From IMG/VR virus record IMGVR_UViG_3300037189_010556, positions 1 through 36,825 of that record: a stretch of DNA of 36,825 nucleotides; one strand, given 5' to 3'. The position numbers were made by a program, and so were the translations under genes. Below the pieces are notes generated by a model. That model was not told the DNA's origin, did no database searches, and saw only the letters and a list, made by a program, of their open reading frames with translations. Shown piece by piece: positions 1,019 through 21,348 of this stretch (its first letter is position 1; every line of letters starts with the position of its first letter). The DNA is from a virus.

Positions 1019-1804
1019 ATGACTGATTATTACGCTACATTGGGTGTGCAACGTACTGCAACAGCCGACGAGATTAAACGAGCCTATCGTCGGCTAGCCA
1101 GCCAACATCACCCCGACAAAGGTGGGGATACAAAAAAGTTTCAAGAAATTGAAGAAGCGTATCGTACACTCAGTGACGTCAACAAAAAACAACAATATGA
1201 TAATCCCAGTGCGCATGTAAATGTAAACAACTTTGGATTTGGAAATTCACCTTTTAACTTTGATGAAATATTTGCACAATTCGGTACAAGATTTAATCAA
1301 CAACACCGACCACAGACGCAGGCTAGATTAACGCTGTGGATTAATCTAATAGATGTTGCCCGCAGTGGCCCGAAAACAATCACAGTTAGTACACCACATG
1401 GTAGTAATGCCTTGGAAATCAATATACCACAGGGCATCGAGGATGGTGATTCTGTGCAATATGCGGGCATCGCACCAGGTGGTGTTGATTTAATTATTAC
1501 ATTTAGAATTACGCCAGACCCATTATGGCAACGCCAAGGGCCTAATTTAATTACTAAAAAAGATGTCAGCATCTGGGATTTAATTTTGGGCGGCGCAATT
1601 GAAATTCGAGACCTCCAAGGAACAACTCTACAGTTGACTATACCACAACGATCAAATCCAGGAACAATACTACGTGTTCGTGGTCGTGGTCTATTGGGCA
1701 GAGCCGGTAATGCCGGTGATTTGTTAATACAACTAAATGCCCAGATTCCGGTTAACATTGATTCAAACATATTAGATGCGATTCGGCTGCATCGAGACAG
1801 CTAA
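1019..1804 (+). CDS. dnaJ: DnaJ-like co-chaperone (type II, no zinc finger)
   Basis: 261 residues. An N-terminal J domain occupies about 1-65 with the HPD motif at 31-33 in R-L-A-S-Q-H-H-P-D-K-G-G, the surface that stimulates the DnaK ATPase. A short G/F segment (N-F-G-F-G, then F-D-E-I-F-A-Q-F-G) follows. Two C-terminal substrate-binding beta domains run from about 103 to 255 ('IPQGIEDGDSVQYAG', 'VRGRGL'). The four CxxCxGxG zinc motifs of classical DnaJ are absent and the dimerisation tail is short, so it resembles CbpA/DnaJB-type proteins but is smaller (about 300 in CbpA). The start has only a weak GGA upstream. It probably acts with host DnaK in the cytoplasm. The neighbouring ClpA-like gene suggests a proteostasis pair, each with its own sigma70-type promoter. 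Confidence 0.9.
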   Translation: MTDYYATLGVQRTATADEIKRAYRRLASQHHPDKGGDTKKFQEIEEAYRTLSDVNKKQQYDNPSAHVNVNNFGFGNSPFNFDEIFAQFGTRFNQQHRPQTQARLTLWINLIDVARSGPKTITVSTPHGSNALEINIPQGIEDGDSVQYAGIAPGGVDLIITFRITPDPLWQRQGPNLITKKDVSIWDLILGGAIEIRDLQGTTLQLTIPQRSNPGTILRVRGRGLLGRAGNAGDLLIQLNAQIPVNIDSNILDAIRLHRDS

Positions 1805-1829
1805 GTATTCTAAATTGATTAAATTACAC

Positions 1830-1858
1830 TTGATGACTTGAAAAAATTCATGTATAAT
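1830..1858 (+). promoter_or_regulatory. sigma70-type promoter for clpA-like gene
   Basis: TTGATG at 1830-1835, a 17-bp spacer and a perfect TATAAT at 1853-1858 in the 83-bp gap before the ATG at 1888. The expected start near 1865 leaves a leader of about 23 nt containing an AGATAGG ribosome-binding sequence. Confidence 0.6.
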
Positions 1859-1887
1859 TGTATATCCAAATAAGATAGGTAATTGTT

Positions 1888-7489: not shown

Positions 7490-9541
7490 ATGAATATTAC
7501 TGAGTTAGATTCCTATAACCTTGACGATGCAGTTAAGTTTAATCAAGATTTAAACCCCATTCTCTGGGATCATGGTGAACACCTTCGCCCTGAAGTCCGA
7601 AACGCACTGTTAGATATAGCCGAAGATTTTAAAGAATTTTTAGGTGTACCCGATTTAGCCGTTAAAGATATTACCGTTTCTGGTAGTAATGCTGCCTATA
7701 CATACACCCCACACTCAGATATTGATCTACATTTGCTAGTTGATATTCCTGAATTAAATGATGAAGTTTATCGTGAACTGTTTAATGCTAAGAAATACCA
7801 ATACAACGATGAACACGATATTACCATTGGTGGGTATGATGTTGAATTGTATGTTCAAGATGCTAATCAACCAGTGGTCAGCCAAGGCGAGTACAGTGTA
7901 TTAAACAACAAATGGATACAAGTTCCAAAACGTGCCAAGGCACACATAGACGATGTTAGCACACGCAGTAAGTATGAAGATTTAGTAGCCAGGATTGACC
8001 AAGCTATTATGTCCGGGGAATACATTCGCATGAGCAAGTTGTTGGAAAAAATTCGTGCTATGCGCAAAACTGGCCTAGCTGAGCATGGCGAATTCGGTAC
8101 TGAGAATTTAGCTTTTAAAATATTGCGCACACAAGGTTATATTAAAAAATTGTCAGACGCTGCCACTGCGGCACGTGACGAAGAACTTAGTCTAACTGAG
8201 CAAGTAAAAATTCACAAACCAGTGAAATATGGATTCCGCAGTTACACCATTGAGGATGTTACTTCTACTCCCGATGGTGTTGGACCAAGCACACGCATGT
8301 TCCTAAGTGAAGAGCCAAAAGACCTATTAGAAATTATCAAAGAGTTTGTTGCGTTTTCCCAAGAATATCTAGAACTAGAAAAAGTTCCAAAAATAGTAAT
8401 TAAAAAAGATCCAGCTTGGAGTGAGCGAAATAAAAGTTTTGGTTCTTTTGATCTAGAAACTGGCGTGCTAACAATCAGTGCTGCCAATCGTCATCCCATG
8501 GACATACTGCGAACACTGGCACATGAATTAGTGCATCGCAAACAAGCAGAAGAAAACGATCTGCCGCCCGAAGCTGGGGAGACTGGTTCTCCAGAAGAAA
8601 ATGATGCAAATGCAACAGCTGGCATAATCATGAGAGAGTTTGCTCAGTTACATCCTGATTATTTTGAAGATGATCCTATCACCGAAAATGCCTCTGGGTA
8701 TATTCCAACTAAGAAACAGGCACGCGACCCTAGATATTCCATGGCATTGACTGTGGACATTAAGCCAGGTGAAGTGGGTAGACAGGCTAACAAACTTGGG
8801 TTAAAAACAAATAAGCAAGGGCTTCCACAGATTGCTAATCCCAACGGATTAGCCGAAGCGTTGACATTAGAGTTAGCAAGACATAAAAAGAATAACGAAG
8901 ATTATTCTGCTGACGATCCGCCAGGCCTTAAAGGTGATGTTGATGAAAGTGCAGAAAAGGTAATTAGAAAAATGAAATCAAACGATTTAGTTAAAAACAC
9001 AACCTTGGGTGGATTCCCTGTTAAAGTATTGAATATACAAGACTCGGGGGACCAGCTCGACGAACTATCTAATGAAAAGTTACGTCAGTATAAAACTGCG
9101 GCTGCCGCAGATGCTGGGGCATCTGATTTAGCTGGCAATACTAAACGTGCCGACAAAAGATTTAGTGGTATTATTCAAGCAACTAAAAAACAATTTGCCA
9201 ATGATGTTAAAAAACCCAGCGTTGGTGAAGAAGCAAGCCCAATGATCAAACCACCTGCTAATAGATTTGACAGCAAACAACAAGCATTTGCTCATGTTAA
9301 ACAACATGGCGGTCGGGTATTTAAAAGCACATACATTGATCCTAACACCGGAATGAAGACTACAACATTTGTTGTTAAAAAAGATCCAGGAAGTCTAAAA
9401 GAAAATACAAAAGTTGTGCCAGTTGCACCCACTTTAAAGATACAAGGTACAAGAACACAGCCAAAACAGACTGTGCATGTTCCTCAAGAAAAGAAAGCAT
9501 CTCCGGCAGTAGTTAATCACATCAAACGTGATGTAAAATGA
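7490..9541 (+). CDS. nucleotidyltransferase/metallopeptidase fusion, probable virion protein
   Basis: 683 residues. A pol-beta-type nucleotidyltransferase domain comes first: G65-S66, then S-D-I-D-L with D77 and D79, and a third acidic strand D-V-E at 117-119. A helical linker follows, then a gluzincin-like peptidase domain with H-E-L-V-H at 345-349 and a downstream E-E-N-D-A-N (about 369-374) that can supply the third zinc ligand. From about 480 the protein is a string of short basic modules, including L-D-E-L-S at 523-527 that recurs in the protein at 14370. All catalytic residues of both domains appear intact. Substrates are unknown; nucleotide transfer to RNA or protein and proteolysis of host or phage proteins are possible. 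Late promoter and shared module suggest it is virion-associated. Confidence 0.75.
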   Translation: MNITELDSYNLDDAVKFNQDLNPILWDHGEHLRPEVRNALLDIAEDFKEFLGVPDLAVKDITVSGSNAAYTYTPHSDIDLHLLVDIPELNDEVYRELFNAKKYQYNDEHDITIGGYDVELYVQDANQPVVSQGEYSVLNNKWIQVPKRAKAHIDDVSTRSKYEDLVARIDQAIMSGEYIRMSKLLEKIRAMRKTGLAEHGEFGTENLAFKILRTQGYIKKLSDAATAARDEELSLTEQVKIHKPVKYGFRSYTIEDVTSTPDGVGPSTRMFLSEEPKDLLEIIKEFVAFSQEYLELEKVPKIVIKKDPAWSERNKSFGSFDLETGVLTISAANRHPMDILRTLAHELVHRKQAEENDLPPEAGETGSPEENDANATAGIIMREFAQLHPDYFEDDPITENASGYIPTKKQARDPRYSMALTVDIKPGEVGRQANKLGLKTNKQGLPQIANPNGLAEALTLELARHKKNNEDYSADDPPGLKGDVDESAEKVIRKMKSNDLVKNTTLGGFPVKVLNIQDSGDQLDELSNEKLRQYKTAAAADAGASDLAGNTKRADKRFSGIIQATKKQFANDVKKPSVGEEASPMIKPPANRFDSKQQAFAHVKQHGGRVFKSTYIDPNTGMKTTTFVVKKDPGSLKENTKVVPVAPTLKIQGTRTQPKQTVHVPQEKKASPAVVNHIKRDVK

Positions 9542-9545
9542 ACAG

Positions 9546-9553
9546 TATAAATA
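9546..9553 (+). promoter_or_regulatory. T4 late promoter, perfect consensus
   Basis: TATAAATA matches the T4 late consensus exactly. It ends 8 nt before the ATG at 9561, putting the predicted start near 9559. It drives the overlapping gene series 9561-15502, in which I find no other promoter or terminator. Confidence 0.65.
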
Positions 9554-9560
9554 TTATATC

Positions 9561-10703
9561 ATGAAAATAAACGACGTTACTAAAATCTTTGAAGCTTACG
9601 GTGCTCCTGGGTCTAGAGCACTAGGCGCAGCCAATTTTGCATTACTAAGTCGCCATTATACTAGACCTGGCGCTAGATTTAGTCGCAATTTAAAATTAGA
9701 TTTTGGTAATGGCAATGTAATGGAGTTAGATGATGAAGATGTAGAAGCCATAGCCAAATACTATGATTCTCTACCAGCAGATGCAGATCGCTATAGTTTT
9801 GTATATGACACTATGAGTCGTATAGATAAGTTTACATCATTATTACGCAAAGTTGGTCGCAGGGAAGAAGCAGATGCGCAAGCACAATTGTGGGAAGACG
9901 ATTCTAAAAAAAAGTCTCAGACAGGAATAGATCGAACTAGTGTTCGTAGTGCCGCACTAAACACTGCATTAAAACAAGCGTTTGCCAAATATCCAAGTGC
10001 TAGCAGTGACATTGAAGCACTAATCATGCATGACCTAGACTATCAAAAAGACACTGATAAAGATTTACAGAATCAAACAAAAACAAATCGTAGACAAGAT
10101 AAAATTGACACTCAAATTAAAGATATTGTGCGCAAACAAAGTGCTAAAATCTCTACATTAGATCAAGAAAACGACGACTTAACTTCTGAATTAGACAGAC
10201 TCAGTCAAGAAGTAGGTGCTGGCAAATTAAATGTTACACCACCAACACAAGATGACCGTGCTGAGAAACGCAGCCAAAGCAAGGAAAAACGCAAAGCTGA
10301 TGCCGACAATACAAATCAAAGTATTATCGGGCAGTGGCCTAAGCCTACTGCAAGTATGCCACCATTGGCTAATCCCGTAACCAAGCCAAATCTCCCTACA
10401 ATTGATATACTTGACCAGCCAAAACCTGCGGCAGAAAAGCCAGCGGATGCTGTGACTAAAATATCTATTCCTAAGTTACCTGCTAGCATTGACACAGTTG
10501 AACCAGTTGCTGAGCCAACGCCTGCACCTGCTAATAATGTTTTCCAGTTTCCTGGAAAGGGTGCAAGTACAGCACAGGAGCCACCACAAGACGAACCAGA
10601 TCCAAGACAGCCCGATTTGCCCGGAATAGAGAAACGTACAGGCACTAACAATGAATCAAAAGTATTGGGTCGAATGAAAGAATTAGCAGGATTAGATAAA
10701 TGA
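9561..10703 (+). CDS. unknown protein with capsid-targeting-like N-terminus
   Basis: 380 residues, first gene of the late operon. The N-terminus M-K-I-N-D-V-T-K-I-F-E-A ends in I-F-E, matching the [IL]-x-E site of T4-type prohead proteases and the layout of T4 internal-protein targeting peptides. A globular region of about 110 residues follows. A long charged helical stretch at about 125-225, with a coiled-coil segment S-T-L-D-Q-E-N-D-D-L, comes next. Then there is a Pro/Ala-rich disordered region (about 255-350) and a short C-terminal helix M-K-E-L-A-G-L. There are no cysteines or catalytic motifs. It could be an internal head or scaffold-like protein. Its stop overlaps the next ATG. No family is recognised, and the packaging role is inferred. 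Confidence 0.65.
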   Translation: MKINDVTKIFEAYGAPGSRALGAANFALLSRHYTRPGARFSRNLKLDFGNGNVMELDDEDVEAIAKYYDSLPADADRYSFVYDTMSRIDKFTSLLRKVGRREEADAQAQLWEDDSKKKSQTGIDRTSVRSAALNTALKQAFAKYPSASSDIEALIMHDLDYQKDTDKDLQNQTKTNRRQDKIDTQIKDIVRKQSAKISTLDQENDDLTSELDRLSQEVGAGKLNVTPPTQDDRAEKRSQSKEKRKADADNTNQSIIGQWPKPTASMPPLANPVTKPNLPTIDILDQPKPAAEKPADAVTKISIPKLPASIDTVEPVAEPTPAPANNVFQFPGKGASTAQEPPQDEPDPRQPDLPGIEKRTGTNNESKVLGRMKELAGLDK

Positions 10704-12232
10704 GATTATTTCACATTCTTAAAGAACAAAATTCATTGAACGACACCTCAATGGCTGCATTGTTACAGGCTAAACAAAGCATTGAACAAAAACAGGCGGC
10801 AGAGATAGAAGCTTGGAAGCAAGACTTTCAGAGAAACACTGCACAGCGGGCTGGGCAACAATTAAAGAGAGCGTTTGAGCCTGCTCCGGTGGCAGCTCCT
10901 GGAGAAAAACACTCAGTACTCAAAAGCAGGCTGGCTAACTTAAATCTTGCTATACGAAAACAACAAGTACTAGACACTTTAAGTGACCGTGCAGAAAAAA
11001 TGGGATTGCTTAATGCTGGGCTTAGAGCAGACGTAGATACATCAATGTATGTGCGTGATGCGGCCAGAGACAATTATCAAACACTAAATCAGCATCTCGA
11101 TACTGCTATTAGTCGTATCAACAATAGAATAAACACACATCGTGCAGCCTATGCTAAACCCAAGCATGTTGACGAGGAATTAAAACTTAATGCTCCGGGA
11201 CGCACAATGCCACGGGACGAATTGCAAGGCTATGCTGACCGCATTAAAACCGGTACCAAAACCAAGCGTGATAAGTTTAGTCCTATTATACACGGTAGCA
11301 ACATCAAAGCTATTACCAAAGACGATGAGAATACTGAGTGGGATTTAGACGACTTAGCTCGCCAAATTACAACTAGACCCCGTGCCATCCTTGGCACAAA
11401 TGCCAAAATGGAAAAGAGTAAGACCGAGGGAGAAATTATATATGATCTAACATTGCCTGCACTCAGTGGCATTGTAGTTGACGAAGGTACCGGCGACTTT
11501 GTGGAAATTGCCACTTGTCCAGGTGCAGGTGCTTGCCAACTATTTTGCTATGCTAGAAAAGGCGGCTATGTTATGTTCCCGGCCAGTAGTATGTCAGCGG
11601 CGCAGGCATTAAACTTTTTAGTTAACGATCCTGTAGGATATAGTGCTCGTGTTAATCAAGAAATTAAAGCCATTAAAAGCAAAACAGATAAAATTGGAGT
11701 ACAGTTAGTTGTTCGTTGGCACGATGCCGGTGACTTCTTCTCTAAAGATTATTTAAACTTAGCCTATGATGTTGCTAGATCCAATCCTGATGTGCAGTTT
11801 TATGCTTACACAAAAATGGGAGATGTAGCAACAGGGTCAGCGCCACCAAACTTTATAATAAACTTCTCTTCGGGCAGTAAGCGTGGTGAAGAAAAGAAAG
11901 TTGAATTCCACAAGAGTCAAGGCAACGTGGTTAAGCAGGGTGTTACTGTGCCCAAGGATATGTTCTTTGATTTGATTGCACGTAAAGGCAACAGTTTAAT
12001 TAAAGATGCAAAAGGGCGTACACAATTTACCAGTCCAGCTGCCTTAGAAATGTTCAAAGATAGATTAGCAAAAGCATATAAAGTTAATCCTGATACTATC
12101 ATTACCTATGACCAGATGTTAGATACGCCAATAGGTACCAAACCACACTGGAATGTTATTGTACAACCGGGTGCTGGTGATCGTGCAGCCAATCGCAAGG
12201 ATGTGATTGATAGTTACTTGATGTTCCACTAA
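10700..12232 (+). CDS. Gp88-like protein with capsid-targeting-like N-terminus
   Basis: 510 residues, ATGA overlap with the preceding gene, AGGA about 8 nt upstream. The start M-R-L-F-H-I-L-K-E ends in L-K-E, a possible prohead-protease site. Residues about 10-150 are helical. The C-terminal two-thirds resemble the mycobacteriophage 'gene product 88' family: 'LTLPALSG', then C-P-G-A-G-A-C-Q-L-F-C-Y-A, a three-cysteine cluster that probably binds metal or an iron-sulfur centre, and further on R-W-H-D-A-G-D-F-F. The biochemical function of that family is not established to my knowledge. Finding it in a late operon with targeting-like peptides suggests the protein may enter the host with the DNA. 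The family call rests on the cysteine motif. Confidence 0.68.
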   Translation: MRLFHILKEQNSLNDTSMAALLQAKQSIEQKQAAEIEAWKQDFQRNTAQRAGQQLKRAFEPAPVAAPGEKHSVLKSRLANLNLAIRKQQVLDTLSDRAEKMGLLNAGLRADVDTSMYVRDAARDNYQTLNQHLDTAISRINNRINTHRAAYAKPKHVDEELKLNAPGRTMPRDELQGYADRIKTGTKTKRDKFSPIIHGSNIKAITKDDENTEWDLDDLARQITTRPRAILGTNAKMEKSKTEGEIIYDLTLPALSGIVVDEGTGDFVEIATCPGAGACQLFCYARKGGYVMFPASSMSAAQALNFLVNDPVGYSARVNQEIKAIKSKTDKIGVQLVVRWHDAGDFFSKDYLNLAYDVARSNPDVQFYAYTKMGDVATGSAPPNFIINFSSGSKRGEEKKVEFHKSQGNVVKQGVTVPKDMFFDLIARKGNSLIKDAKGRTQFTSPAALEMFKDRLAKAYKVNPDTIITYDQMLDTPIGTKPHWNVIVQPGAGDRAANRKDVIDSYLMFH

Positions 12233-12233
12233 A

Positions 12234-12719
12234 ATGCGAGCACAAGAATTTATCATCGAAGGCAAGTTAAGCGTAGATGTGCCCAACGAAGAATGGTTGC
12301 AGGACAAGATTGACTATGCTAAAAGCAAAGGCCGCAACAGATACGGAGTTCCATTCATGGGAAGTACCACTGCGTATGTTGTTGGGACTCCTCCCCGAGT
12401 GCGTGTAATGAGATTGGCTTCTCTCCCAGGCGAGAAGAACGAGCAAATGAATGTACGCAAAGATGATCTCAAGTGGTTAATGGACTACATGGAACGCACT
12501 GGTAAATTGCCACCCATGAGAAGCGATCCCAACGAAGAATACTTGCCCTACATCGAGGTTGCTTACAATGGTGAAGCATGGGTCAACGAAGGCAATCATC
12601 GCATCATGGCCGCATATAGATTAAACTGGCAGGATATGCCCATTGAAATTCGTTACTTTGATGGTGGCGAAAGAATTGCAACCGGACCAATGGCACCGGG
12701 TAAGATTGGACTAGCATGA
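12234..12719 (+). CDS. ParB/sulfiredoxin-fold-like protein with capsid-targeting-like N-terminus
   Basis: 161 residues, starting one base after the previous stop. The N-terminus M-R-A-Q-E-F-I-I-E-G is the closest match here to the T4 internal-protein targeting peptide (M-K-T-Y-Q-E-F-I-A-E), with the cleavage pattern I-I-E. The C-terminal half holds Y-I-E-V-A-Y-N-G-E-A-W then V-N-E-G-N-H-R-I-M-A-A-Y-R-L, which resembles the G-x-H-R-x-x-A-A motif of ParB/Srx-like domains. These bind or hydrolyse nucleotides (CTP in ParB) or act as nucleases. Length fits a single domain plus the peptide. It could be an injected DNA-binding or nuclease factor; the fold call is moderate. The next gene's ATG overlaps its TGA. 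Confidence 0.65.
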   Translation: MRAQEFIIEGKLSVDVPNEEWLQDKIDYAKSKGRNRYGVPFMGSTTAYVVGTPPRVRVMRLASLPGEKNEQMNVRKDDLKWLMDYMERTGKLPPMRSDPNEEYLPYIEVAYNGEAWVNEGNHRIMAAYRLNWQDMPIEIRYFDGGERIATGPMAPGKIGLA

Positions 12720-13351
12720 GAGCTCAAGATTTTATAAAAGAAGCATTTGATAAACCGTATAAACTACTTCGGTGGGAAAAGGGTGACTACGGTGATGTAG
12801 ACGCAATAGCACGATTAGATGACAACACCTTTCTAAGTATTATGTTCAACAAGGGATTTGATCAAGAGACAAAAGAAGAAGCATGGAGTGTTGAGTTTTA
12901 TAGAAACAACAGTCAAGAAGTCACAGGCGAAGGTGATGCACAACGTGTATTTGCCACTGTGTTAAGTGCTATTCAAACATTTATTAAAAAGTACAAGCCC
13001 AATAAAGTATACTTTGCGGCAAACAAAGTAGATGACACTGGACACGACTCACCGAGCAGAGCAAGACTATACGACAGTTTAGTTCAGCGTTATGCCCGGG
13101 CCTGGGGCTTTAGAGCGTTTCGTGCAGATACCGGTAATAAAGTTATGTATGAATTGAGTAGAATAAACAAGAATGTGGCGGAAAACTTTGCAGATGGCAA
13201 GAAGCCAGGTCGCAAAGGTCTAGCCAAACGTGTGGGCGTCAACTGTAAACAACCTGTGGCCAAACTACGCAGTATTGCCGCCAACAGCTCGGGCGAAAAG
13301 CAACGCATGGCACACTGGTGTGCCAATATGAAAAGTGGTAAAAAGAAATGA
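12716..13351 (+). CDS. modular phage protein with capsid-targeting-like N-terminus
   Basis: 211 residues, ATGA overlap. It starts M-R-A-Q-D-F-I-K-E-A, nearly identical in its first seven positions to the neighbouring 12234 protein. A central alpha/beta domain (about 15-145) follows, with 'YKPNKVYFAANKVD' and 'RARLYDSLVQRYA'. A basic tail after about 155 ('KKPGRKGLAKRVGVNCKQ' through 'GEKQRMAHWCANMKSGKK') recalls a short C-terminal module I have seen on several marine and freshwater phage proteins. The basic tail suggests nucleic-acid contact. No catalytic motif is evident, though the central fold could be acetyltransferase-like. Predicted late, and cleaved after I-K-E if the targeting model holds. 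Confidence 0.68.
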   Translation: MRAQDFIKEAFDKPYKLLRWEKGDYGDVDAIARLDDNTFLSIMFNKGFDQETKEEAWSVEFYRNNSQEVTGEGDAQRVFATVLSAIQTFIKKYKPNKVYFAANKVDDTGHDSPSRARLYDSLVQRYARAWGFRAFRADTGNKVMYELSRINKNVAENFADGKKPGRKGLAKRVGVNCKQPVAKLRSIAANSSGEKQRMAHWCANMKSGKKK

Positions 13352-14373
13352 AGGCCAGCGAGTTTCAAATACACAGCACTGATAAGTTAGACAGCATACT
13401 CACTGAGTTGTGCCAAATGATTATCAATGGCAAAAAGAAAAACCCTGATTACTATGGCATGGTGGCTGCCGCAGTACTAGATCCCAACAACAATCTAGTA
13501 ATGTCTATCAATCATTATGATGATGCCACAGACAAACGTGTGCATGCAGAACGTGCGGCTGTAGAAAAATACAATAAAAAATTTGGAGATGTGCCCGGTG
13601 GCAGTATTGTTATTACCACATTAAGTCCGTGTAGCGAAGATATGGTCGAACGTTACGGTGAAAGTTGCACTGATTTTATTAACAGCTTGGGTATACACAA
13701 AGTCTATTGCGGATACGATGATCCAACACAACATCCAGAACATAAAAAGTTTCACACACAAGAAACACGCAATGAAAAATTAAAAACATTGTGCAAACAA
13801 TTTGCAGATACATTTTTAAAAAAATTAAATGAAGCTACTAACCCTGTAGAAGAAAAACCCATGCCACATTTATATCTAGACATGGATGGTGTGCAAGCAG
13901 ACTTCTTTGGCGCATGGGCAGACATGCACAAAGTTCCAAGTTACAAGCATATACATAATCCAGAGAATGCCATAGAAGAATTGGCAGCCAGTGGCGAACA
14001 AAATGTTTATGATTTCTTTAGAAAGTTAAAGCCATTAAATGGCGGGCAACGTATTATTAAATGGCTACATCAGCATAATATTCCTTTTACAGTGTTGAGT
14101 GCGCCGTTGCGTGGTAACTCTGCACACGCTAGTATTGCTGCCAAAAAAGATTGGTTAGATATTTTTAATCCTGGCACTAGTGGCAATGCTATTTTTACTT
14201 CGGCCAAATACAAGCATGCAAAAACCAATGGACAGCCTAATGTATTAGTTGATGATTTTGGTAAGTATTTAAATGCCTGGCACGATGCAGGGGGTATTGC
14301 AGTTAAGCATGAAGATGAAAACACTGACAGAACTCTGCAACAGTTAGCTAAAATTTACGGGATTACACAATGA
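13348..14373 (+). CDS. cytidine-deaminase-like / HAD 5'-nucleotidase-like fusion
   Basis: 341 residues, ATGA overlap at both ends. Residues about 30-130 form a zinc deaminase domain: H66-A-E68, then P94-C95 with a second cysteine at C107, a longer spacing than the usual PCxxC. After a linker, residues 172-341 form a HAD phosphatase of the 5'(3')-deoxyribonucleotidase type: motif I L-D178-M-D180-G, and motif IV V-L-V-D-D-F-G-K-Y. A plausible joint reaction is deamination of a (deoxy)cytidine compound and dephosphorylation of a nucleotide, removing dCMP or a modified nucleotide from the pool. The N-terminus M-K-A-S-E-F resembles its neighbours but lacks a clear cleavage site. Substrates are inferred; both catalytic sets look intact. 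Confidence 0.8.
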   Translation: MKASEFQIHSTDKLDSILTELCQMIINGKKKNPDYYGMVAAAVLDPNNNLVMSINHYDDATDKRVHAERAAVEKYNKKFGDVPGGSIVITTLSPCSEDMVERYGESCTDFINSLGIHKVYCGYDDPTQHPEHKKFHTQETRNEKLKTLCKQFADTFLKKLNEATNPVEEKPMPHLYLDMDGVQADFFGAWADMHKVPSYKHIHNPENAIEELAASGEQNVYDFFRKLKPLNGGQRIIKWLHQHNIPFTVLSAPLRGNSAHASIAAKKDWLDIFNPGTSGNAIFTSAKYKHAKTNGQPNVLVDDFGKYLNAWHDAGGIAVKHEDENTDRTLQQLAKIYGITQ

Positions 14374-15311
14374 GACTAAAAGAATTTATATTAGAAAACA
14401 AAATAAAAGGCGCCGATGGCAAGGCCTGCTGGGACGGCTATCGTTACAACGGCACAACAAATGGTAAAGATAGCTGTGTTAAAGTTGGCGAAAACTTTAA
14501 TGGTGAATACGACGATGAAGCAGGTATGGCACATACTAACCTACATACTATCGCTAGAGCTGCTCAGGGTCTTTTAGACACTATAGATGATCAAGAAAAC
14601 TTGCCAGAATGGGTACAAGAAAAAATTGCCAAAGTAGAAGGCATGATGGTCACGGCTTGGAACTATTTAAAAAGCCAAGAAGAACAAGGCATTGATCCTA
14701 GACAAGAGTTAGATGAATTGTCACCTCAAACACTAGCAAGTTATGTTAGAAAATCCAATGCCGATGCTAGGGATAGACTTCGCCAAGATCCAAAAAAACA
14801 ACTTAACAAAGCTCAAAAAAGAGCCGCTGGTATGAGTCAAGCAATTGGCAAGATTCGTGCCACAATGGAACCCAGCACTAACCAACAAGGGTCGTTAAAA
14901 GAATTTGCCCCTGTTGGTGGAGATGACCGTGAGCCTGATGAAGAAGAAATTTTAAAGCAGTTAGCCGCACATTGGTGGCTGGGCACAGAACAACAAATGG
15001 CTAAAGCTCAAAAAACACTGGCTGCAATGGGTTGGGAAATTGGGCAGGATGAATCCGGTGACGATGATGCTGGAGTGTTTGTTATACGTGCCGGTGATGT
15101 TAACGGTGATAGTTATATTGCTTTTAATCACAGTGACTTAGAGTTAAACGAAGACCGACTAGACGAATTAAGTTTTTTAGGATCTCAATGCACCAAAGAT
15201 TGTTCGGGACATAGAGCAGGGTACGACTGGTATAAACGAAAGGGGCGAGATCCGTTTTCACATAGCCAAAGTTTTAACAATGGCGCAGGATTGGCCAAGG
15301 CAGGAAAATGA
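14370..15311 (+). CDS. modular virion-type protein with capsid-targeting-like N-terminus
   Basis: 313 residues, ATGA overlap. The peptide M-R-L-K-E-F-I-L-E-N ends in I-L-E. Modules follow in order. First is a Cys-containing G-K-A-C-W-D-G-Y-R-Y-N-G segment (17-28). Second is a helical module (about 50-105) with L-P-E-W-V-Q-E-K-I. Third is an L-D-E-L-S module (114-162), also found in the protein at 7490. Fourth, after S-L-K-E-F-A-P-V-G-G (175-184), comes an alpha/beta domain. Last is a C-terminal C-T-K-D-C-S-G-H-R-A-G-Y motif with two cysteines. It reads as a bead-string of small domains typical of packaged or structural proteins in large aquatic phages. The internal L-K-E could be a further protease site. 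No catalysis is recognised. Confidence 0.68.
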   Translation: MRLKEFILENKIKGADGKACWDGYRYNGTTNGKDSCVKVGENFNGEYDDEAGMAHTNLHTIARAAQGLLDTIDDQENLPEWVQEKIAKVEGMMVTAWNYLKSQEEQGIDPRQELDELSPQTLASYVRKSNADARDRLRQDPKKQLNKAQKRAAGMSQAIGKIRATMEPSTNQQGSLKEFAPVGGDDREPDEEEILKQLAAHWWLGTEQQMAKAQKTLAAMGWEIGQDESGDDDAGVFVIRAGDVNGDSYIAFNHSDLELNEDRLDELSFLGSQCTKDCSGHRAGYDWYKRKGRDPFSHSQSFNNGAGLAKAGK

Positions 15312-15502
15312 GGGTCAAGGACATAGTCAAACCTTTTAAATTATACTCTGCTCGAGTATATGTTAAACAGACAACCTACACCGGTAACATCGATGTTACA
15401 GTTTCTGCACAAAATCCACAACTGGCAAGACAGCTATTAAAAAGCATGTATGGTGTTGAAGACCACCGTATTGGCAGCATCAAAGAAATTAAATTTAACT
15501 GA
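15308..15502 (+). CDS. small protein, last gene of the late operon
   Basis: 64 residues, ATGA overlap with the upstream gene. The N-terminus M-R-V-K-D-I-V-K-P-F resembles the leader peptides of the operon but has no [IL]-x-E. A compact alpha/beta body follows: Y-S-A-R-V-Y-V-K-Q-T, I-D-V-T-V-S-A-Q-N, a helix Q-L-A-R-Q-L-L-K, and a final strand I-K-E-I-K-F. The body looks like a small ferredoxin-like or OB-type domain with paired strands. It is basic. No function is recognised. The operon appears to end here, though I see no hairpin after it. Confidence 0.62.
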   Translation: MRVKDIVKPFKLYSARVYVKQTTYTGNIDVTVSAQNPQLARQLLKSMYGVEDHRIGSIKEIKFN

Positions 15503-15524: not shown

Positions 15525-16655
15525 ATGAAAAACACGTTTTATTGCGCCGCTCCTTGGCGTGGTCTACATATAAATCCCCGTGGCGATGTTAAAACTTGCT
15601 GTGCCGGTGACCCTAATATGTTAGGTAATCTGAATACAAGCACAATTGAAGAAATACTTCACGGCCCGGTACTACAAGAAATACGACAAACTATACGATC
15701 CGGAGAGCCACATGCTTATTGTTACAACTGTGTACAGGCCGAACGTTATGGACGCAGTGAACGAAATTGGCACAATGACGTAAGCCCTGAGTTTAATTGT
15801 TCCACTGCTGTTGATGACGATCATACACCAGTGCTAATAGATGTTAGGTGGAATACCACTTGTAATTTAAGTTGTAACTATTGTGGTGAGGCATGCAGTT
15901 CTAAATGGGCCAGTATTAAACAAATACCAGTTAAATCTGGCGCACGACCTTACTACAATGATGTCTGTGATTATCTTGCCAAGCACCGAGACAGTATACG
16001 AGAAGTAGCACTAGTTGGTGGTGAGCCGTTGTTATTGCCAGAAAACGAACGACTACTGGATGTTATTCCTGATGGTTGCATAGTAACCTTAATAACCAAT
16101 GTCAGTGTTGATTTAGCCAATAATAAAATATTTCAAAAGTTGTCTAAAAGAAAACGTGTAGGTTGGAGTTTGAGTTTTGACAATGTATATGATCGTTTTG
16201 AGTATGTAAGGCACGGCGGCAAATGGGAATTGTTATTAAAAAATTTAACACTAATACAAGACTTGATGCAGACACAGGGCCACTGGGGTGGCATACACGC
16301 TGTTTACAATCTGTATAATGCAACTAGATTATTTGAACTTACTAGATTTGCTCGAGAGCGCGGGTTACAAATCACTTGGCAAACATTATATCAACCCGAT
16401 TATCTTGACCCACAAAGACTTGGGAATGAAATTAAAACTTTAGCAGCCAACGAGATTCATCGACTGTTTAATAGTGGTCTTTGTTTTCCCAGTGAACGTG
16501 CTTTTTTTGAAAACGTATTGCAAGCACTGGGCAATAACAGTGATAATTTAATTGTAGACCTGCAACAACACATAAACAAAATTGAAAAGAAATTTCATAT
16601 TAACCAACAAGGTGCCTTTGAAAAACTCTGGCCTGAAATACATGAACTCTTTTGA
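15525..16655 (+). CDS. radical SAM protein with N-terminal Twitch domain
   Basis: 376 residues. The N-terminus has C-A-A-P-W-R-G-L-H-I-N-P-R-G-D-V-K then T-C-C-A-G, the cysteine pattern of a Twitch/SPASM-type auxiliary iron-sulfur domain placed before the core, as in the N-Twitch radical SAM group. A C-Y-N-C pair follows near residue 66. The radical SAM core has C113-N-L-S-C117-N-Y-C120 and the V-G-G-E-P-L motif that binds SAM. Enzymes of this layout act on peptides or sugars, but the substrate here is unknown. Neighbours are a DUF6492-type transferase, a PIG-L deacetylase and an SGNH hydrolase, so modification of a glycan or glycopeptide is the favoured context. It overlaps the next gene by 14 bp. 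Confidence 0.85.
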   Translation: MKNTFYCAAPWRGLHINPRGDVKTCCAGDPNMLGNLNTSTIEEILHGPVLQEIRQTIRSGEPHAYCYNCVQAERYGRSERNWHNDVSPEFNCSTAVDDDHTPVLIDVRWNTTCNLSCNYCGEACSSKWASIKQIPVKSGARPYYNDVCDYLAKHRDSIREVALVGGEPLLLPENERLLDVIPDGCIVTLITNVSVDLANNKIFQKLSKRKRVGWSLSFDNVYDRFEYVRHGGKWELLLKNLTLIQDLMQTQGHWGGIHAVYNLYNATRLFELTRFARERGLQITWQTLYQPDYLDPQRLGNEIKTLAANEIHRLFNSGLCFPSERAFFENVLQALGNNSDNLIVDLQQHINKIEKKFHINQQGAFEKLWPEIHELF

Positions 16656-17475
16656 TCTAGTAACTGTGGTATTTGCCGAGGAATTACCTGTACTAAAAGT
16701 GCAGGCACAGTCTATAGAAAAATACTGCGGTAAGTTAAACATTGGAAAAATTATTGTTGTTGTAAATGACAACGAAGATGTGCAGGTTGATACAAATTGG
16801 TACGGAAAACACAAAGACCGTGTGGTTGTGATTAATCGAAGCAAGTATGGTAATTTTAACTGTGATGGTTGGGTAAGTCAGCAAATTTTAAAAATATTCG
16901 GCAGTGCTGAAGGTAGTAGCAAATGGTCAATTGTGTTAGATGCTAAGACAATATTTGTTAGCACAATTGATCCGACTGTGATATTTGATGTTGGTGGCAG
17001 AATACGATCTGGATCTATTCCAATATATCCAGTGTTTTACCCATCAAAAAAGTTAGTCGAAGAGTTGTTTGATATAGAGATAAACGAAGTAATTGGTCCG
17101 TCTGGAGTTCCGTTCTTTTTTCATAATCAAACAGTCAGGGAAATGATAATAGACATTGAGTCTCGTAGTAATCAGACATTTAGTCAGTACTTCCAGGACA
17201 AAGGAATGATCACTGAATTTATGTTATATTCAGCGTATGTTAAACATCGGTATGGACCAGTTAATCATTTATATGGCGGATACTTCGACTACAAAGTAGT
17301 AAATGTCTGCCATAGCGAAGTTGCTGTTTTTGATGAAAAATTTAAAGACATGCACCATGACAATGTGCTAACAGTATCGGTACATCGTAATGCCTGGAAA
17401 CATCTATCTCAGCAACAACAGCAAGATTATCGAAATTTATTATTAGAAAAGAAATTAGAAAGCAGTCATTTATGA
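16642..17475 (+). CDS. DUF6492-like putative glycosyltransferase
   Basis: 277 residues from ATG 16642 (M-N-S-F-D-L-V-T-V-V-F), overlapping the radical SAM gene. An in-frame ATG 60 bp upstream lies deep in that gene and adds a non-family extension. The start 'FDLVTVVFAEELPVLKVQAQSIEKY' (quoted in parts: F-D-L-V-T-V-V-F, L-K-V-Q-A-Q-S) matches the opening strand and helix of DUF6492 proteins, GT-A-like enzymes. W-S-I-V-L-D-A-K-T strand with D-A-K stands where a DxD metal motif is expected. A later P-S-G-V-P-F-F-F-H segment resembles the acceptor side of the family. A cytoplasmic sugar transfer reaction is likely; donor and acceptor are unknown. Its stop overlaps the next start (ATGA). Confidence 0.68.
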   Translation: MNSFDLVTVVFAEELPVLKVQAQSIEKYCGKLNIGKIIVVVNDNEDVQVDTNWYGKHKDRVVVINRSKYGNFNCDGWVSQQILKIFGSAEGSSKWSIVLDAKTIFVSTIDPTVIFDVGGRIRSGSIPIYPVFYPSKKLVEELFDIEINEVIGPSGVPFFFHNQTVREMIIDIESRSNQTFSQYFQDKGMITEFMLYSAYVKHRYGPVNHLYGGYFDYKVVNVCHSEVAVFDEKFKDMHHDNVLTVSVHRNAWKHLSQQQQQDYRNLLLEKKLESSHL

Positions 17476-17975
17476 AATGTTTAGCAATGGTGGCCCACCC
17501 CGACGATTGTATTATATTTGCCTGGCATTATATAATGACCAACAAAGAAAATGACTGGCATATCTGTTATCTTACATACAAAGAACCAGATGCCAGGGCA
17601 ACAGAAATTAAAAAGTTTTGGCAGCATCACGGAATCACTACTAGTTTTTTAGGATTTGTTGATAACTTTCAAGATTTAGTTACCGGACAGATTAGTTTTG
17701 ATCAGAATCAGGCTCGCAGACTTATAGAAGAAAAATGCCAGGGGTATGATTTAATATTAACGCACAACGAAAGAGGCGACTACGGTCACTTGCATCATTG
17801 TTTTGTACACGATAGTGTGATTAAAGAAAACAAACAAGTAGTATACTTTGGCACTGAACAAGAACACAATCATAAATGCACTACACACAAGCAATATGAT
17901 TTAAATTTGTTGCCGTTGCATCGTGAAGTAATTGCAAACTTTGGTTTTAGAAAAACCAATTATTATACAGTGTAA
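17472..17975 (+). CDS. PIG-L/LmbE-family deacetylase
   Basis: 167 residues. M-V-A-H9-P-D-D12 at the N-terminus is the zinc/catalytic AHPDD motif of PIG-L/LmbE N-acetylglucosaminyl deacetylases. H-N-E-R-G-D-Y-G-H-L-H-H in the second half carries the remaining histidine ligand in the usual G-x-Y-x-H-x-x-H form. The family removes acetyl groups from GlcNAc in conjugates such as GlcNAc-PI, mycothiol precursors or antibiotics. The protein is shorter than typical members (about 230), lacking some C-terminal helices, but the active site seems complete. ATGA coupling to the transferase upstream implies they work on the same glycan. The acceptor is inferred only from context. Confidence 0.8.
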   Translation: MKCLAMVAHPDDCIIFAWHYIMTNKENDWHICYLTYKEPDARATEIKKFWQHHGITTSFLGFVDNFQDLVTGQISFDQNQARRLIEEKCQGYDLILTHNERGDYGHLHHCFVHDSVIKENKQVVYFGTEQEHNHKCTTHKQYDLNLLPLHREVIANFGFRKTNYYTV

Positions 17976-17978
17976 ATA
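17971..17978 (+). promoter_or_regulatory. T4-type late promoter
   Basis: TGTAAATA, overlapping the stop of the deacetylase gene. The predicted start near 17984 leaves a 10-nt leader with AAAGG (17984-17988) before the ATG at 17994. Confidence 0.4.
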
Positions 17979-17993
17979 AAATAAAGGATTGAT

Positions 17994-18794
17994 ATGAAAT
18001 TAATGGTAGCTGGATGTAGTTTTTCTGCGGTAAGCAAGTCCTTGCCCGGTACATCATGGAGCGAAGTATTGGCAGAAAAACTAGGCTGGGAATTAGTCAA
18101 CCTAGCACGTCAAGGATGTAGCAATGGTGGTATCAGGCTGCAGATTGAAGAAATAAGACGTCAAAAGCCCGACTTTGCTATTATCACACCAACATTCTGG
18201 GACAGGATGGAAATACCGGCTCGTGCCGCACCATACGATTGGAATCAAAAAGGCGGCGGTGTTAATCCACCACTTGAACGTCACCTGCAGGACAAAAACA
18301 AAAACAACGGATACAATCGTAATGATGGGATTGATAATGTTAACTACGGCAATAACAACTATAACATGATCTGTGAAACTATTTTTAGTCTAGCAGAAAA
18401 CTATCCCCATCCGTATCGCTCGGGGAAAATTGATAAACAAACACAGACAGCCATACGCCACTGGATTGACTGCATCTACGACACACACTGGAAAAAACAA
18501 CAAGACGAATGGATTATTCGAGAGGGAATTTTACAGCTATATCTTGATGGTATAAAATTTTTAGTACAGCCGGTTCTGTTATGGCCACACGAAGTTGATA
18601 ATCCTAAACTATGGCGCAGTGCATTTCCTTCGATTATACCCGATCATTATATCATGCAGAGCTCTGAAGAAAGTGTATTATCTGTATGCGGCAACAATCC
18701 TTTTACCGGAAGTGATCCTGGATATCACAGCGAGCCCCGGGGACAAGCGGCTATTGCTGAAAACTGGCATAGACGAATAGTTAATTTTAACTGA
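17994..18794 (+). CDS. SGNH/GDSL-type hydrolase
   Basis: 266 residues with AAAGG upstream. Block I is G-C-S9-F-S (nucleophile S9), block II N-L-A-R-Q-G-C-S-N-G-G-I, block III I-I-T-P-T-F-W-D-R, and block V D241-P-G-Y-H245-S-E-P-R-G-Q, giving a complete Ser/His/Asp arrangement for an esterase such as an O-acetyl-sugar esterase. A low-complexity insertion rich in Asn, Tyr and Gly lies at about 98-125. No signal peptide, so it acts in the cytoplasm or as a virion part. It closes the plus-strand cluster of glycan-like enzymes. The gene is convergent with the next one, only 16 bp apart and with no terminator hairpin between them. Confidence 0.7.
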   Translation: MKLMVAGCSFSAVSKSLPGTSWSEVLAEKLGWELVNLARQGCSNGGIRLQIEEIRRQKPDFAIITPTFWDRMEIPARAAPYDWNQKGGGVNPPLERHLQDKNKNNGYNRNDGIDNVNYGNNNYNMICETIFSLAENYPHPYRSGKIDKQTQTAIRHWIDCIYDTHWKKQQDEWIIREGILQLYLDGIKFLVQPVLLWPHEVDNPKLWRSAFPSIIPDHYIMQSSEESVLSVCGNNPFTGSDPGYHSEPRGQAAIAENWHRRIVNFN

Positions 18795-18810
18795 TATAAT
18801 ATTCTTGTGG

Positions 18811-19812
18811 TCATAGTTTGCCACAGGTAGATATGCACTGATATAACCTGCCATTTTTAATAGAGTCTTTTTCCCAGGACTCTTGTACTTTAGTAAACCA
18901 GTTTAAACAATGTTCAAGACTGTGTTCAAGTGCGTTATTTTCTTTGGCCAGTTGTTCAAGTTGTGTGTTTCCTGGATGAGTCATTTGTCCGGGGTAGAAA
19001 CCTAACCAACAACAAGGATAAACGGACCCATCGGCTGCAACATAAATGCTAGAAGTTCTTTTAGCATAGCAGTGTATTTTACAATCTAAGGTATCTTTTT
19101 CAAATTGAATTGTGTCTTTGTCAAACCAAGTTAAATGGCTGTTTAACAGATCCTGAATATTGGGCATATCGGGCTCGTTGCCAAACTTAGTTCCAATCCT
19201 ATGACTAAAAGATCCGTCACGGTTATATACCGGACCACGGTTTCTTCCTTCATCGATGTTTTCAAATTGTGTAAATCCCATTTCTTTTGCAGTACGTTTA
19301 CAAGCATTAATTTGATGTTGATTATGATCAAACGGAATAAATCTCCATACTGCATAGCCCCCGGCATCTATAAACGCCTGTGCATTTTTAATTACAGTGT
19401 GCCAGTCTGTGTCCTGCCTGTACAACGAATGTGTGTCCTCAAGCCCATCAAGCGCAAACCCAATTTGTACATTTGGCAAAGCCAATTGACTCCACCACTG
19501 CGGAGTACGCATACTACCATTGGTGTTAATTGTAATTTTTTTAGCATTGTGTTCTACTAGATATTGCACTATTTCTAATGCGTCTGACGCTAGACCAAAG
19601 TCGCCTAGATTACCGTTAAAATTTATAACATCCAGCTGTGCAATCAGTTCAGGTGTGCATATTTTTTTAAAATCTTGTAGTTTTAATTCAGTGATTGGGT
19701 ACCCACTGTTATAATTGTACCCTCGGTAATTCCGTGGACAAAGCGGGCACCGAGCCTGGCATCGAGTAGTTAATTCAAACTGAATACTTTTTACATCATT
19801 GATGGATATCAT
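18811..19812 (-). CDS. radical SAM/SPASM-type protein
   Basis: 333 residues from ATG at 19812; a longer in-frame start 45 bp upstream adds a hydrophobic extension and would overlap the divergent gene, while a late octamer sits just before 19812. The core motif is C18-Q-A-R-C22-P-L-C25, with N-F-N-G-N-L-G-D in the SAM-binding region and I-N-T-N-G-S on a later strand. The C-terminal part has C-K-I-H-C-Y-A-K-R and Y-P-C-C-W-L-G, then C-L and C-I-S-T-C, a SPASM-like set of cysteines for auxiliary clusters. Such enzymes modify peptides or act as anaerobic sulfatase maturases or sugar enzymes. Substrate is not evident. It is one of two minus-strand genes in the window. Confidence 0.85.
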   Translation of the reverse strand: MISINDVKSIQFELTTRCQARCPLCPRNYRGYNYNSGYPITELKLQDFKKICTPELIAQLDVINFNGNLGDFGLASDALEIVQYLVEHNAKKITINTNGSMRTPQWWSQLALPNVQIGFALDGLEDTHSLYRQDTDWHTVIKNAQAFIDAGGYAVWRFIPFDHNQHQINACKRTAKEMGFTQFENIDEGRNRGPVYNRDGSFSHRIGTKFGNEPDMPNIQDLLNSHLTWFDKDTIQFEKDTLDCKIHCYAKRTSSIYVAADGSVYPCCWLGFYPGQMTHPGNTQLEQLAKENNALEHSLEHCLNWFTKVQESWEKDSIKNGRLYQCISTCGKL

Positions 19813-19816
19813 AGTG

Positions 19817-19824
19817 TATTTAAG
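19817..19824 (-). promoter_or_regulatory. T4-type late promoter, minus strand
   Basis: CTTAAATA read on the minus strand, ending 5 nt before the minus-strand ATG at 19812. It is paired with a plus-strand octamer 20 bp away, forming a compact divergent late-promoter region. Confidence 0.45.
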
Positions 19825-19843
19825 TTTCCAAATAACTAAAGAT

Positions 19844-19851
19844 AATAAATA
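19844..19851 (+). promoter_or_regulatory. T4-type late promoter
   Basis: AATAAATA ending 5 nt before the ATG at 19856. It supports that ATG over an upstream in-frame ATG at 19799, which would lie inside the divergent gene. Confidence 0.5.
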
Positions 19852-19855
19852 TAGC

Positions 19856-20146
19856 ATGGATGCACGATTTGTTCAATTGGTATTTGATGTTGCTTGTACA
19901 CGTCCGGAATTGAACCCGGTGTATCGTGTTTTTATCGAAGACGAGATGTTAATTGAACGTAAATGGCGCTGGAATGATCCAGCAATTTACCTACAAGAAA
20001 TGTTACAATTGATGGTTCCACCGGGGAAGTATAATATACGCTTTGAAACTCCTGGGAACGAAGTTGGTGTAATAACCAATACAAACGGTCGTGTAATACA
20101 AGGCCCGGCTAAGTTAAAAAGCAATTATCTTTTAAAGGTTAGTTAA
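19856..20146 (+). CDS. phage protein of unknown function
   Basis: 96 residues from ATG 19856 (M-D-A-R-F-V-Q-L). Mostly beta strands: V-Y-R-V-F-I-E-D-E-M-L-I, a W-R-W motif, a short helix I-Y-L-Q-E-M-L-Q, then P-P-G-K-Y-N-I-R-F-E, as in small jelly-roll or Ig-like phage accessory domains. No cysteine-based or catalytic motif beyond a single Cys. It starts a late operon that runs into the second group of targeting-peptide genes, and its stop shares a base with the next ATG (TTAATG). A virion decoration or assembly role is inferred from position only. Confidence 0.6.
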   Translation: MDARFVQLVFDVACTRPELNPVYRVFIEDEMLIERKWRWNDPAIYLQEMLQLMVPPGKYNIRFETPGNEVGVITNTNGRVIQGPAKLKSNYLLKVS

Positions 20147-20346
20147 TGAGAATACGCGAAATTTTAGAAAGCGCAACTACTAGCAGTGGATCAATTGCTA
20201 CAGTAGCAAGTCCATTAATGGCTCAAAGTCGTGACGGCGGAAATTTATTATCAGGTAAATATACTAATACTCCCTTCACCGGGCAATTAAAGAAACAAAG
20301 GAAAAATCGTGCTCGCAGACAGTTTGAAAACTCTATTGGCAACTGA
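20146..20346 (+). CDS. small basic protein with capsid-targeting-like N-terminus
   Basis: 66 residues. The start M-R-I-R-E-I-L-E-S fits M-[RK]-x-x-[ED]-[FIL]-x-E, with I-L-E as the expected prohead-protease site. The rest is Ser/Thr/Gly-rich (T-T-S-S-G-S-I-A-T-V-A-S-P-L) followed by a strongly basic stretch K-K-Q-R-K-N-R-A-R-R, suitable for binding DNA in the head. No fold is recognised. Its end overlaps the Dps gene start by 38 bp in another frame. Internal head protein is the best guess. Confidence 0.6.
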   Translation: MRIREILESATTSSGSIATVASPLMAQSRDGGNLLSGKYTNTPFTGQLKKQRKNRARRQFENSIGN

Positions 20347-20752
20347 ATACGCATTCAGTATTAAAGCCCAACTATTCCACTGGAATGTGGAAGGTCCCGA
20401 CTTTGCGCAGTTACACGAATTCTTTGGGGATTTGTACGCAGAAGTATATGATAACAGCATTGATCGCACTGCCGAGTTTATACGAACTCTTGACGATTAT
20501 ACTCCTGGAAGTTTTGAACGATTTGCTGAGCTTTCAATTATCCCTGGACAGATAAAGATACCACGAGCAAGATTAATGATTGAAGAATTATTGGCCAACA
20601 ACGGTCAAATGATTGACTTATTAAATCAATGTTTTGCCGACGCTGAACAAGAAAACAAACAAGGTATCGCCAATTTTATTGCCGAGCGGTTAGATGCGCA
20701 CGGCAAACATAATTGGATGCTAAAGAGCTTTTTGAAGGACCAGCGGGCATGA
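20309..20752 (+). CDS. dps: Dps-like ferritin-fold DNA-protection protein
   Basis: 147 residues from GTG 20309, supported by AAAGGA six nt upstream, inside the end of the preceding gene. The motif F-H24-W-N-V-E-G-P-D-F-x-x-L-H36, then D52-x-x-x-E56, matches the intersubunit di-iron ferroxidase site of Dps; the His-Asp spacing is one residue longer than in E. coli Dps. Four helices of the expected length follow and there is no N-terminal Lys tail. Dps dodecamers oxidise and store iron with peroxide and shield DNA. In a phage it may protect replicating or packaged DNA or be delivered with it. Its TGA overlaps the ATG at 20749. Confidence 0.82.
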   Translation: MLADSLKTLLATEYAFSIKAQLFHWNVEGPDFAQLHEFFGDLYAEVYDNSIDRTAEFIRTLDDYTPGSFERFAELSIIPGQIKIPRARLMIEELLANNGQMIDLLNQCFADAEQENKQGIANFIAERLDAHGKHNWMLKSFLKDQRA

Positions 20753-21348
20753 GCAACGAGATTTACGACATTTTACAAAAACTTACTTTAATTGAAGGTA
20801 ATATTACCCCCACCGGCGTTAAGAAGGGGTTGAACCAGCAACAAAAGTCTGCGCCACAATTGCCAGCATTGTTTAAGCCCACACACATTAAAGCATTGGG
20901 CAACAAAACAGATCCTAAGCATCCAGCATCAAAATATTTTGTCGGCGCCGAAAGTGTGGAACTCAGTGAAGAACAGGATATTGATGAAGATGTTTTAAGT
21001 AAAGTTAAAAAAACATTAGGCGATTATTTAAAAAATATCGAAGATGAGATCGGGCATAAAGAAAAATCCGACACCAGCTTTAAAAATAAAAAACAAGAAA
21101 CAGATGAAGTGGCAATTGACCCACCAACTGCTAGCTTTCCAATTAAAACTATTGCACTAGAAAATGGGCGTGTCTGCGAAATTCACGGTGACACAGGTCG
21201 TGGATTTGAAATTCGACATAATGGAAAAATTTTACCTAGCCGATTTGATGACATCGATCACGCAGTAATGGCTGTAGATATGTATGCTGCCAAACGTAAA
21301 AAAAATAATAACAACGACATACAGTCGGACTACATGGAAGAAAAATAA
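20749..21348 (+). CDS. phage protein of unknown function, possible virion cargo
   Basis: 199 residues from ATG 20749, chosen for its ATGA overlap with the Dps stop and GAAGGA about 9 nt upstream. An in-frame TTG at 20713 would add M-D-A-K-E-L-F-E-G-P-A-G, which resembles the targeting peptides of the neighbours (L-F-E site), so this start is also worth testing. The N-terminal helix Y-D-I-L-Q-K-L-T-L-I-E-G and the 'VPQLPALFKP'-like segment (here A-P-Q-L-P-A-L-F-K-P) recall proteins I have seen in aquatic large phages. The middle is Lys/Glu-rich; the end has a small alpha/beta domain ('IEIHGDTGRGFEIRHNG' type). No catalytic motif. Confidence 0.6.
   Translation: MSNEIYDILQKLTLIEGNITPTGVKKGLNQQQKSAPQLPALFKPTHIKALGNKTDPKHPASKYFVGAESVELSEEQDIDEDVLSKVKKTLGDYLKNIEDEIGHKEKSDTSFKNKKQETDEVAIDPPTASFPIKTIALENGRVCEIHGDTGRGFEIRHNGKILPSRFDDIDHAVMAVDMYAAKRKKNNNNDIQSDYMEEK

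Follow-up and report, generated by a model that had tools for sequence, protein, structure and literature searches.

Why should a run of unrelated viral genes open with nearly the same short peptide? The question is raised by a cassette of seven open reading frames (ORFs) at 9561-15502 of the 36,825-base viral record IMGVR_UViG_3300037189_010556, a fragment whose whole length we call the window. A first-pass annotation had described seven genes, five of them beginning with a peptide that ends in [IL]-x-E, and had likened these peptides to the sequences that direct T4 internal proteins into the prohead. According to passages of PMC9026906, cleavage by the T4 protease gp21 follows L/I-x-E, and a stretch of 10 residues from IPIII is enough for targeting. 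All seven ORFs are present as described (starts 9561, 10700, 12234, 12716, 13348, 14370 and 15308), and the five tag-like starts hold up. With Glu at residue 9-11, [IL]xE occurs after 459 of 17,089 internal Mets (2.7%) and in 229 of 3,208 N-termini (7.1%); five in seven cassette genes gives P = 2.8e-7 against the former and 3.4e-5 against the latter. Judging from sequence, the cassette probably encodes late-made head cargo that is targeted to the capsid in the manner of T4, with the same cut rule separating modules inside the larger proteins. The cassette and the features just upstream of it are as follows, with a slash marking each predicted cut:

7490-9541, plus strand: upstream multi-domain protein with an NTP_transf_2 domain (PF01909, E=1.3e-4), a zincin-like HExxH motif (HELVH, read directly) and further modules
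9546-9553, plus strand: predicted T4-type late promoter, TATAAATA, 7 nt 5' of the first cassette gene (9561)
9561-10703, plus strand: cassette gene 1, 380 residues, tag-like start MKINDVTKIFE/AYG, no family in Pfam or PHROGs
10700-12232, plus strand: cassette gene 2, 510 residues, start MRLFHILKE/QNS, Gene product 88 (GP88) domain (PF17338, E=3e-33)
12234-12719, plus strand: cassette gene 3, 161 residues, tag MRAQEFIIE/GKLSVDVP, weak ParB-like match (phrog_1033, E=0.007)
12716-13351, plus strand: cassette gene 4, 211 residues, isoelectric point (pI) 9.7, tag MRAQDFIKE/AFDKPY, DUF6934 (PF22028, E=1.6e-6)
13348-14373, plus strand: cassette gene 5, 341 residues, untagged, cytidine deaminase (PF00383, E=3.2e-11) and an NT5C-like phosphatase (PF06941) just under the cut-off
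14370-15311, plus strand: cassette gene 6, 313 residues, tag MRLKEFILE/NKIK, internal sites GSLKE178/FAPV and LELNE261/DRLDE
15308-15502, plus strand: cassette gene 7, 64 residues, pI 9.9, degenerate start MRVKDIVKPFK; some orthologues begin MRAQEFIRLSE/RPLK

Five of the gene junctions are 4-nt ATGA overlaps, and 12234 begins one base past the preceding stop. To place the window, we collected relatives with its DNA polymerase, keeping the best 80 of the hundreds found in the viral collection; a GP88 protein query matched 41 loci there. The longest relative records are G001 (364 kb), G002 (355 kb) and G003 (342 kb). Among cultured phages the polymerase is closest to those of Sinorhizobium phage Phosso (51% identity) and Agrobacterium phage Atu_ph07 (45%), which places the group among T4-related jumbo myoviruses. 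Two protein sets were used below: a larger one from the window and its relatives, including 121 added loci (the 3,208 N-termini and 17,089 internal Mets given above), and a smaller one from the window and five large relatives (1,755 N-termini; 456,717 residues).

We then defined a strict tag, M[KR]x1-3[DEQ][FIVL][ILVF]xE. It is carried by 3 of the 45 genes of the window against 0.01 expected, by 18 N-termini of the smaller set against 0.93 expected (500 column permutations, maximum 5), and by 72 proteins of the larger set, falling in 20 protein clusters, against 5 internal Mets. The related pattern [KR]x1-3[DEQ]F[ILV]xE occurs 39 times in the smaller set, 15 of them starting at residue 2, and 59 of the 73 N-termini that fit the remainder of the tag have Glu at position 9. 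As a positive control, the strict pattern recovers IPII, IPIII and gp61.1 from T4, while a looser version also picks up gp21, gp22, gp24, Alt and others. At the DNA level, a pattern for MRAxEFIxE matches at least 120 stretches of the viral collection against 7 for the same residues scrambled; among the matches listed, tagged ORFs form at least 51 clusters by the sequence that follows the tag. The largest of these is a conserved family of about 125 residues (L405 5639 and 76 similar ORFs), which is a tandem pair in G001 (218097-218854) and G003 (265935-266695). At the tag's F, I and first E, codon choice is no more restricted than in the rest of these genomes, and this synonymous variation points to selection on the peptide rather than the DNA.

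The modules that follow a tag in one protein recur inside other, larger proteins, and it is here that the second part of the argument lies. The 12234 module, for example, lies internally in relatives after TVTE/, TVAE/ or NKVE/; in the alignment, tag and internal linkers interchange immediately ahead of an identical GKLSVDVP. Among 57 non-redundant internal copies of such modules, the residue before the junction (P1) is Glu in 47 (3.9 expected) and P3 is I, L or V in 40 (9.5 expected); both hold together in 40 copies against 0.65 expected, with P2, P4, P5 and P1' near or below background. When no motif is assumed, local homology ends in the tag network still show an excess of Glu at -1 (102 vs 36), and of Val at -3 (52 vs 27). 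Across all proteins, the peak of [ILV]xE falls right on the boundaries, and no such peak is seen for [ILV]xD or [ILV]xK. The tag network as a whole is not richer in [ILV]xE (1.03-fold), so density is no evidence and only boundary position counts. As a side observation on codon use, GAA encodes the P1 Glu in 47 of 50 tags and likewise in 39 of 40 internal junctions, more often than the genome rate of 78%.

Within the window, recurrent homology boundaries coincide with [ILV]xE sites in proteins 7490, 10700, 12716, 13348, 14370 and 21348. The 7490 protein has no tag of its own and carries such sites at its domain boundaries, chiefly DPITE399/NASG and QLDE525/LSNE; homology to relatives stops at residue 400 and begins at 401. 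Cassette gene 1 has one segment in common with multi-module proteins of relatives. In gene 2, an N-terminal helical region is followed by the predicted linker KHVDE159/ELKLNAP and then the GP88 domain; homology begins at 155-157, and the predicted local distance difference test score (pLDDT) of the model is below 50 at 151-159. Gene 4 has an internal site, KNVAE156/NFADGK, ahead of a basic C-terminal module, and gene 5 has KKLNE162/ATNP at the deaminase/phosphatase junction, where homology stops at 162-164. These internal boundary sites were missed by the first-pass annotation. Since they follow the cut-site rule, many cargo genes probably encode polyproteins that would be split into modules in the prohead.

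The commonest 5-mer of the tag network, QGVAE, behaves differently from the tag and bears on the best-surviving alternative. Further downstream, the window holds a protein with two linkers of this kind:

21348-22772, plus strand: multi-module protein, 474 residues, tag-like start MRTLDLFE/NS, linkers QGVAE119/GS and QGVNE181/GV
21690-21706, plus strand: in-frame DNA linker element CAAGGTGTGGCGGAAG(G) encoding QGVAE, supported by the family-wide consensus and a codon test

Unlike the tag, QGVAE is kept as DNA: it is written CAA GGT GTG GCG GAA, within an element, CAAGGTGTGGCGGAAGG, found at module junctions. Its codons are CAA in 79/81 cases, GGT in 76/81 and GCG in 71/81, GCG making up 7% of Ala codons. 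Allowing up to two mismatches, 24 of 24 matches in the window and large relatives are in sense frame 0. A FAPG stretch that follows QGVAE in L081 resembles the FAPV of cassette gene 6. CAAGGTGTGGCGGAAGG is present in many viral contigs (for example, L265-L343), and a literature search for QGVAEG returned no match. Peptide selection alone would not be expected to conserve the DNA in this way, whereas a recombination junction would. It is therefore conceivable, though improbable, that tags target single cargo proteins and that the internal [ILV]xE motifs are only uncut recombination or linker scars; Iyer et al. (PMC5512222) have also proposed zincin self-processing for such multi-domain proteins. 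But QGVAE accounts for only two of the 40 exact-register junctions, the other 38 being different, eleven P3 codons are used among the 40, and the constraint on P1 and P3 with P2 and P4 left free is the pattern of a protease. Moreover, in 101 of 103 exact matches to the element in the viral collection, sense frame 0 is the longest open frame. The QGVAE element may act as a junction in recombination and at the same time encode a V-x-E cut site; its DNA-level conservation and nearly constant frame suggest that the linker marks module shuffling too.

For T4-type head machinery, the evidence comes from the relatives. Peptidase_S77, the family of the T4 gp21-type prohead protease, is found in G001, G002, G003 and G007, including all three records over 340 kb, and also in Atu_ph07, Phosso, GAP32, Synechococcus phage B23 and T4. 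In G001-G003 the protease adjoins portal- and scaffold-like genes, assigned by position and by eye, and a gp23-like gene, assigned by alignment. These gp23-like proteins can be aligned with T4 gp23. They share an L-x-E in a single column, where the propeptide boundary is expected; the sequence before it diverges, and a conserved A[ST][AS]G.T run comes after it. The same run stands after the Glu of small tagged proteins such as MRAHEFIAE/NASAGATGSGSIAT, which would tie the tag Glu to the predicted capsid cut site. One small protein of the window has a tag-like start outside the cassette:

20146-20346, plus strand: small protein, 66 residues, pI 11.3, start MRIREILE/SATTSSGSIATVA

Small tagged proteins of this kind (here and at L019 1870-2073, among others) continue past the Glu much as the family's major capsid protein is predicted to begin once matured. 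A T4 counterpart appears to be gp61.1 (NC_000866 18966-19130), MKTFKEFIKE...NISIGTTSGAV (compare gp23 NIAAGQTSGAV).

The first-pass annotation had also called the cassette a late operon, headed by one perfect sequence element. TATAAATA is indeed at 9546-9553, but that is its one occurrence in the window against 3 expected by chance, so it shows no excess and is uninformative on its own. We retain it because of the test in relatives: TATAAATA lies 5-70 nt upstream of genes in 12 of 15 cases in G002 (0.6 expected) and 21 of 32 in T4 (1.6 expected). The window's TATAAATATTAT also recurs 5 nt upstream of a small head-cluster gene of a relative.

Some tagged proteins are enzyme-like and their cleavage is so far a prediction, as would be the case if the N-terminal peptide were an uncut retention or docking signal for a target other than the prohead, such as a phage-made compartment or a host protein. 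We regard this as quite unlikely: the Glu is retained at internal junctions that have other residues in place of the remaining tag, which is unexpected for a docking signal; small tagged proteins share with the capsid protein the flank of its predicted cut site; and an S77 protease and T4-type late promoters occur in the same genomes. That the motif is an effect of chance or of composition at translation starts, as the bias of position-2 Arg codons to AGA/CGA might hint given start-site A-richness, is very hard to credit against the internal-Met, column-permutation and scrambled-pattern controls. We therefore favor T4-like capsid targeting because the tag is found on about 20 unrelated clusters and is conserved as a peptide, and because relatives have S77 proteases, gp23-like proteins with L-x-E and late promoters.

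Several observations weigh against this T4-like interpretation. Two of the seven cassette genes are untagged, Glu being missing from the starts of 13348 (MKASEFQIH) and 15308, and the cultured phages nearest to the group have few strict tags (1 in Atu_ph07, 3 in Phosso). The proposed search for a prohead protease succeeded in four relatives, in which the suggested refutation by absence of that gene fails, but the window's 36.8-kb fragment has no protease, capsid or scaffold gene. V is the commonest internal P3 residue and falls outside the T4 L/I-x-E rule, and in the alignment the cut site predicted for the gp23-like proteins lies some ten residues downstream of the T4 site. The motif is short and many [ILV]xE lie inside folded domains, so not every one is a site. 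Neither N-terminally mapped virion proteomics nor a cleavage assay is known to us for this phage group.

Ten tandem proteins of the cultured relative Atu_ph07 (L200 39484-49507) start M[KR]W.[QD]L[TNI]E, with M1, W3, L6 and E8 kept though identity elsewhere drops to 17%. In one of them, L200:39484-41820, a zeta-toxin-like kinase domain follows EVTE/, and the C-terminal PITE/TSSAGSTGAGNVAT resembles the capsid flank. The published virion proteome assigns 29 proteins to the CDS 31-76 region (PMC6102473); the array lies inside this region by gene number, the 29 being a total for the region. Invariant R-G, S and E residues recall the R-S-E pattern of ADP-ribosyltransferases, an impression left unconfirmed when a profile was run against solved structures; profiles of the array and of GP88 found nothing significant in the PDB.

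Pfam and PHROGs assign few functions to the cassette. The GP88 call of the first-pass annotation agrees with the Pfam match in gene 2; the fold model of the GP88 protein (mean pLDDT 75.8, confident in places) has no significant PDB match and mainly retrieves other GP88 viral proteins. The annotation's ParB-like call, matched here to gene 3, stays weak, the predicted fold being too poor for a structure search, and its description of the cargo as basic suits some proteins and not others (pI 5.0-9.9). The predicted activities (nucleotidyltransferase, deaminase/NT5C, GP88, ParB-like) hint, speculatively, at early host takeover or counter-defence.

Elsewhere in the window, a Ferritin/Dps-like gene (20309-20752; PF00210, E=1.1e-20) overlaps the 3' end of the small tagged protein 20146. 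At 1019-4146, 15525-19857 and 32101-33753 inspection by eye alone suggested genes for DnaJ-like and Clp-like chaperones, for radical-SAM-like proteins with CxxxCxxC and for a protein resembling tRNA-guanine transglycosylase.

How does the scheme compare with known systems? Like T4 IPI-III and Alt, the cargo has a tag of about ten residues, M[KR]..EF[IL]xE, with a predicted cut after hydrophobic-x-Glu, together with an S77 protease (here in relatives) and TATAAATA late promoters. In contrast to T4, the tag is usually one residue shorter (MRAxEFIxE vs MKTYQEFIAE) and V is apparently allowed at P3; there are many more protein clusters, many cargo proteins are large or acidic, and multi-module proteins repeat the motif at internal boundaries. 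The shuffled multi-domain proteins with nucleotidyltransferase, zincin-like and ParB-like parts resemble the polyvalent proteins of Iyer et al. 2017, for which delivery with the DNA and built-in zincin processing have been proposed (PMC5512222); of these features, NTP_transf_2 is over the cut-off, HExxH was seen by eye, the ParB-like part reaches only E=0.007, and shuffling is shown. Here, however, the boundaries agree with the cut rule of the prohead protease, and many of them have a T4-type tag ahead. In the jumbo phages phiKZ and SPN3US, numerous proteins of the head, ejected ones among them, are likewise processed behind a short motif whose last residues are x-E, but the phiKZ rule is S/A-x-E, and the passages of PMC9026906 on these phages describe no common swappable tag and linker system. 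In phage P1 DarB, too, an N-terminal peptide directs a cargo protein to the head, but this is a single case with an unrelated signal, suggested at residues 6-10, the first 30 being sufficient (PMC9024508). What is new here, as read from sequence, is a T4 capsid-targeting scheme whose predicted cut rule also delimits shuffled domains and which is probably combined with polyvalent-type cargo.

In the mechanism we propose, the tag, a basic residue followed by [DE]-F-[IVL]-x-E, would act as a T4-type capsid-targeting sequence, its aromatic and hydrophobic part binding the prohead core. A gp21-like S77 protease would cut after [ILV]-x-E, releasing the cargo in the head before DNA packaging, and the cargo would be ejected along with the DNA at infection; the same cut-site rule would divide swappable domains in the larger proteins. 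More tentatively, the whole may be an injected-effector cassette system, in which swappable modules are joined by prohead-protease sites, partly through the in-frame QGVAE in its dual role as recombination junction and cut site, permitting multi-domain cargo to be reshuffled and then cut into single effectors in the head. If true, the tag and linker rule would make anonymous giant-phage genes a sequence-readable list of predicted injected proteins, and would point to how phages mix and match their early effectors.

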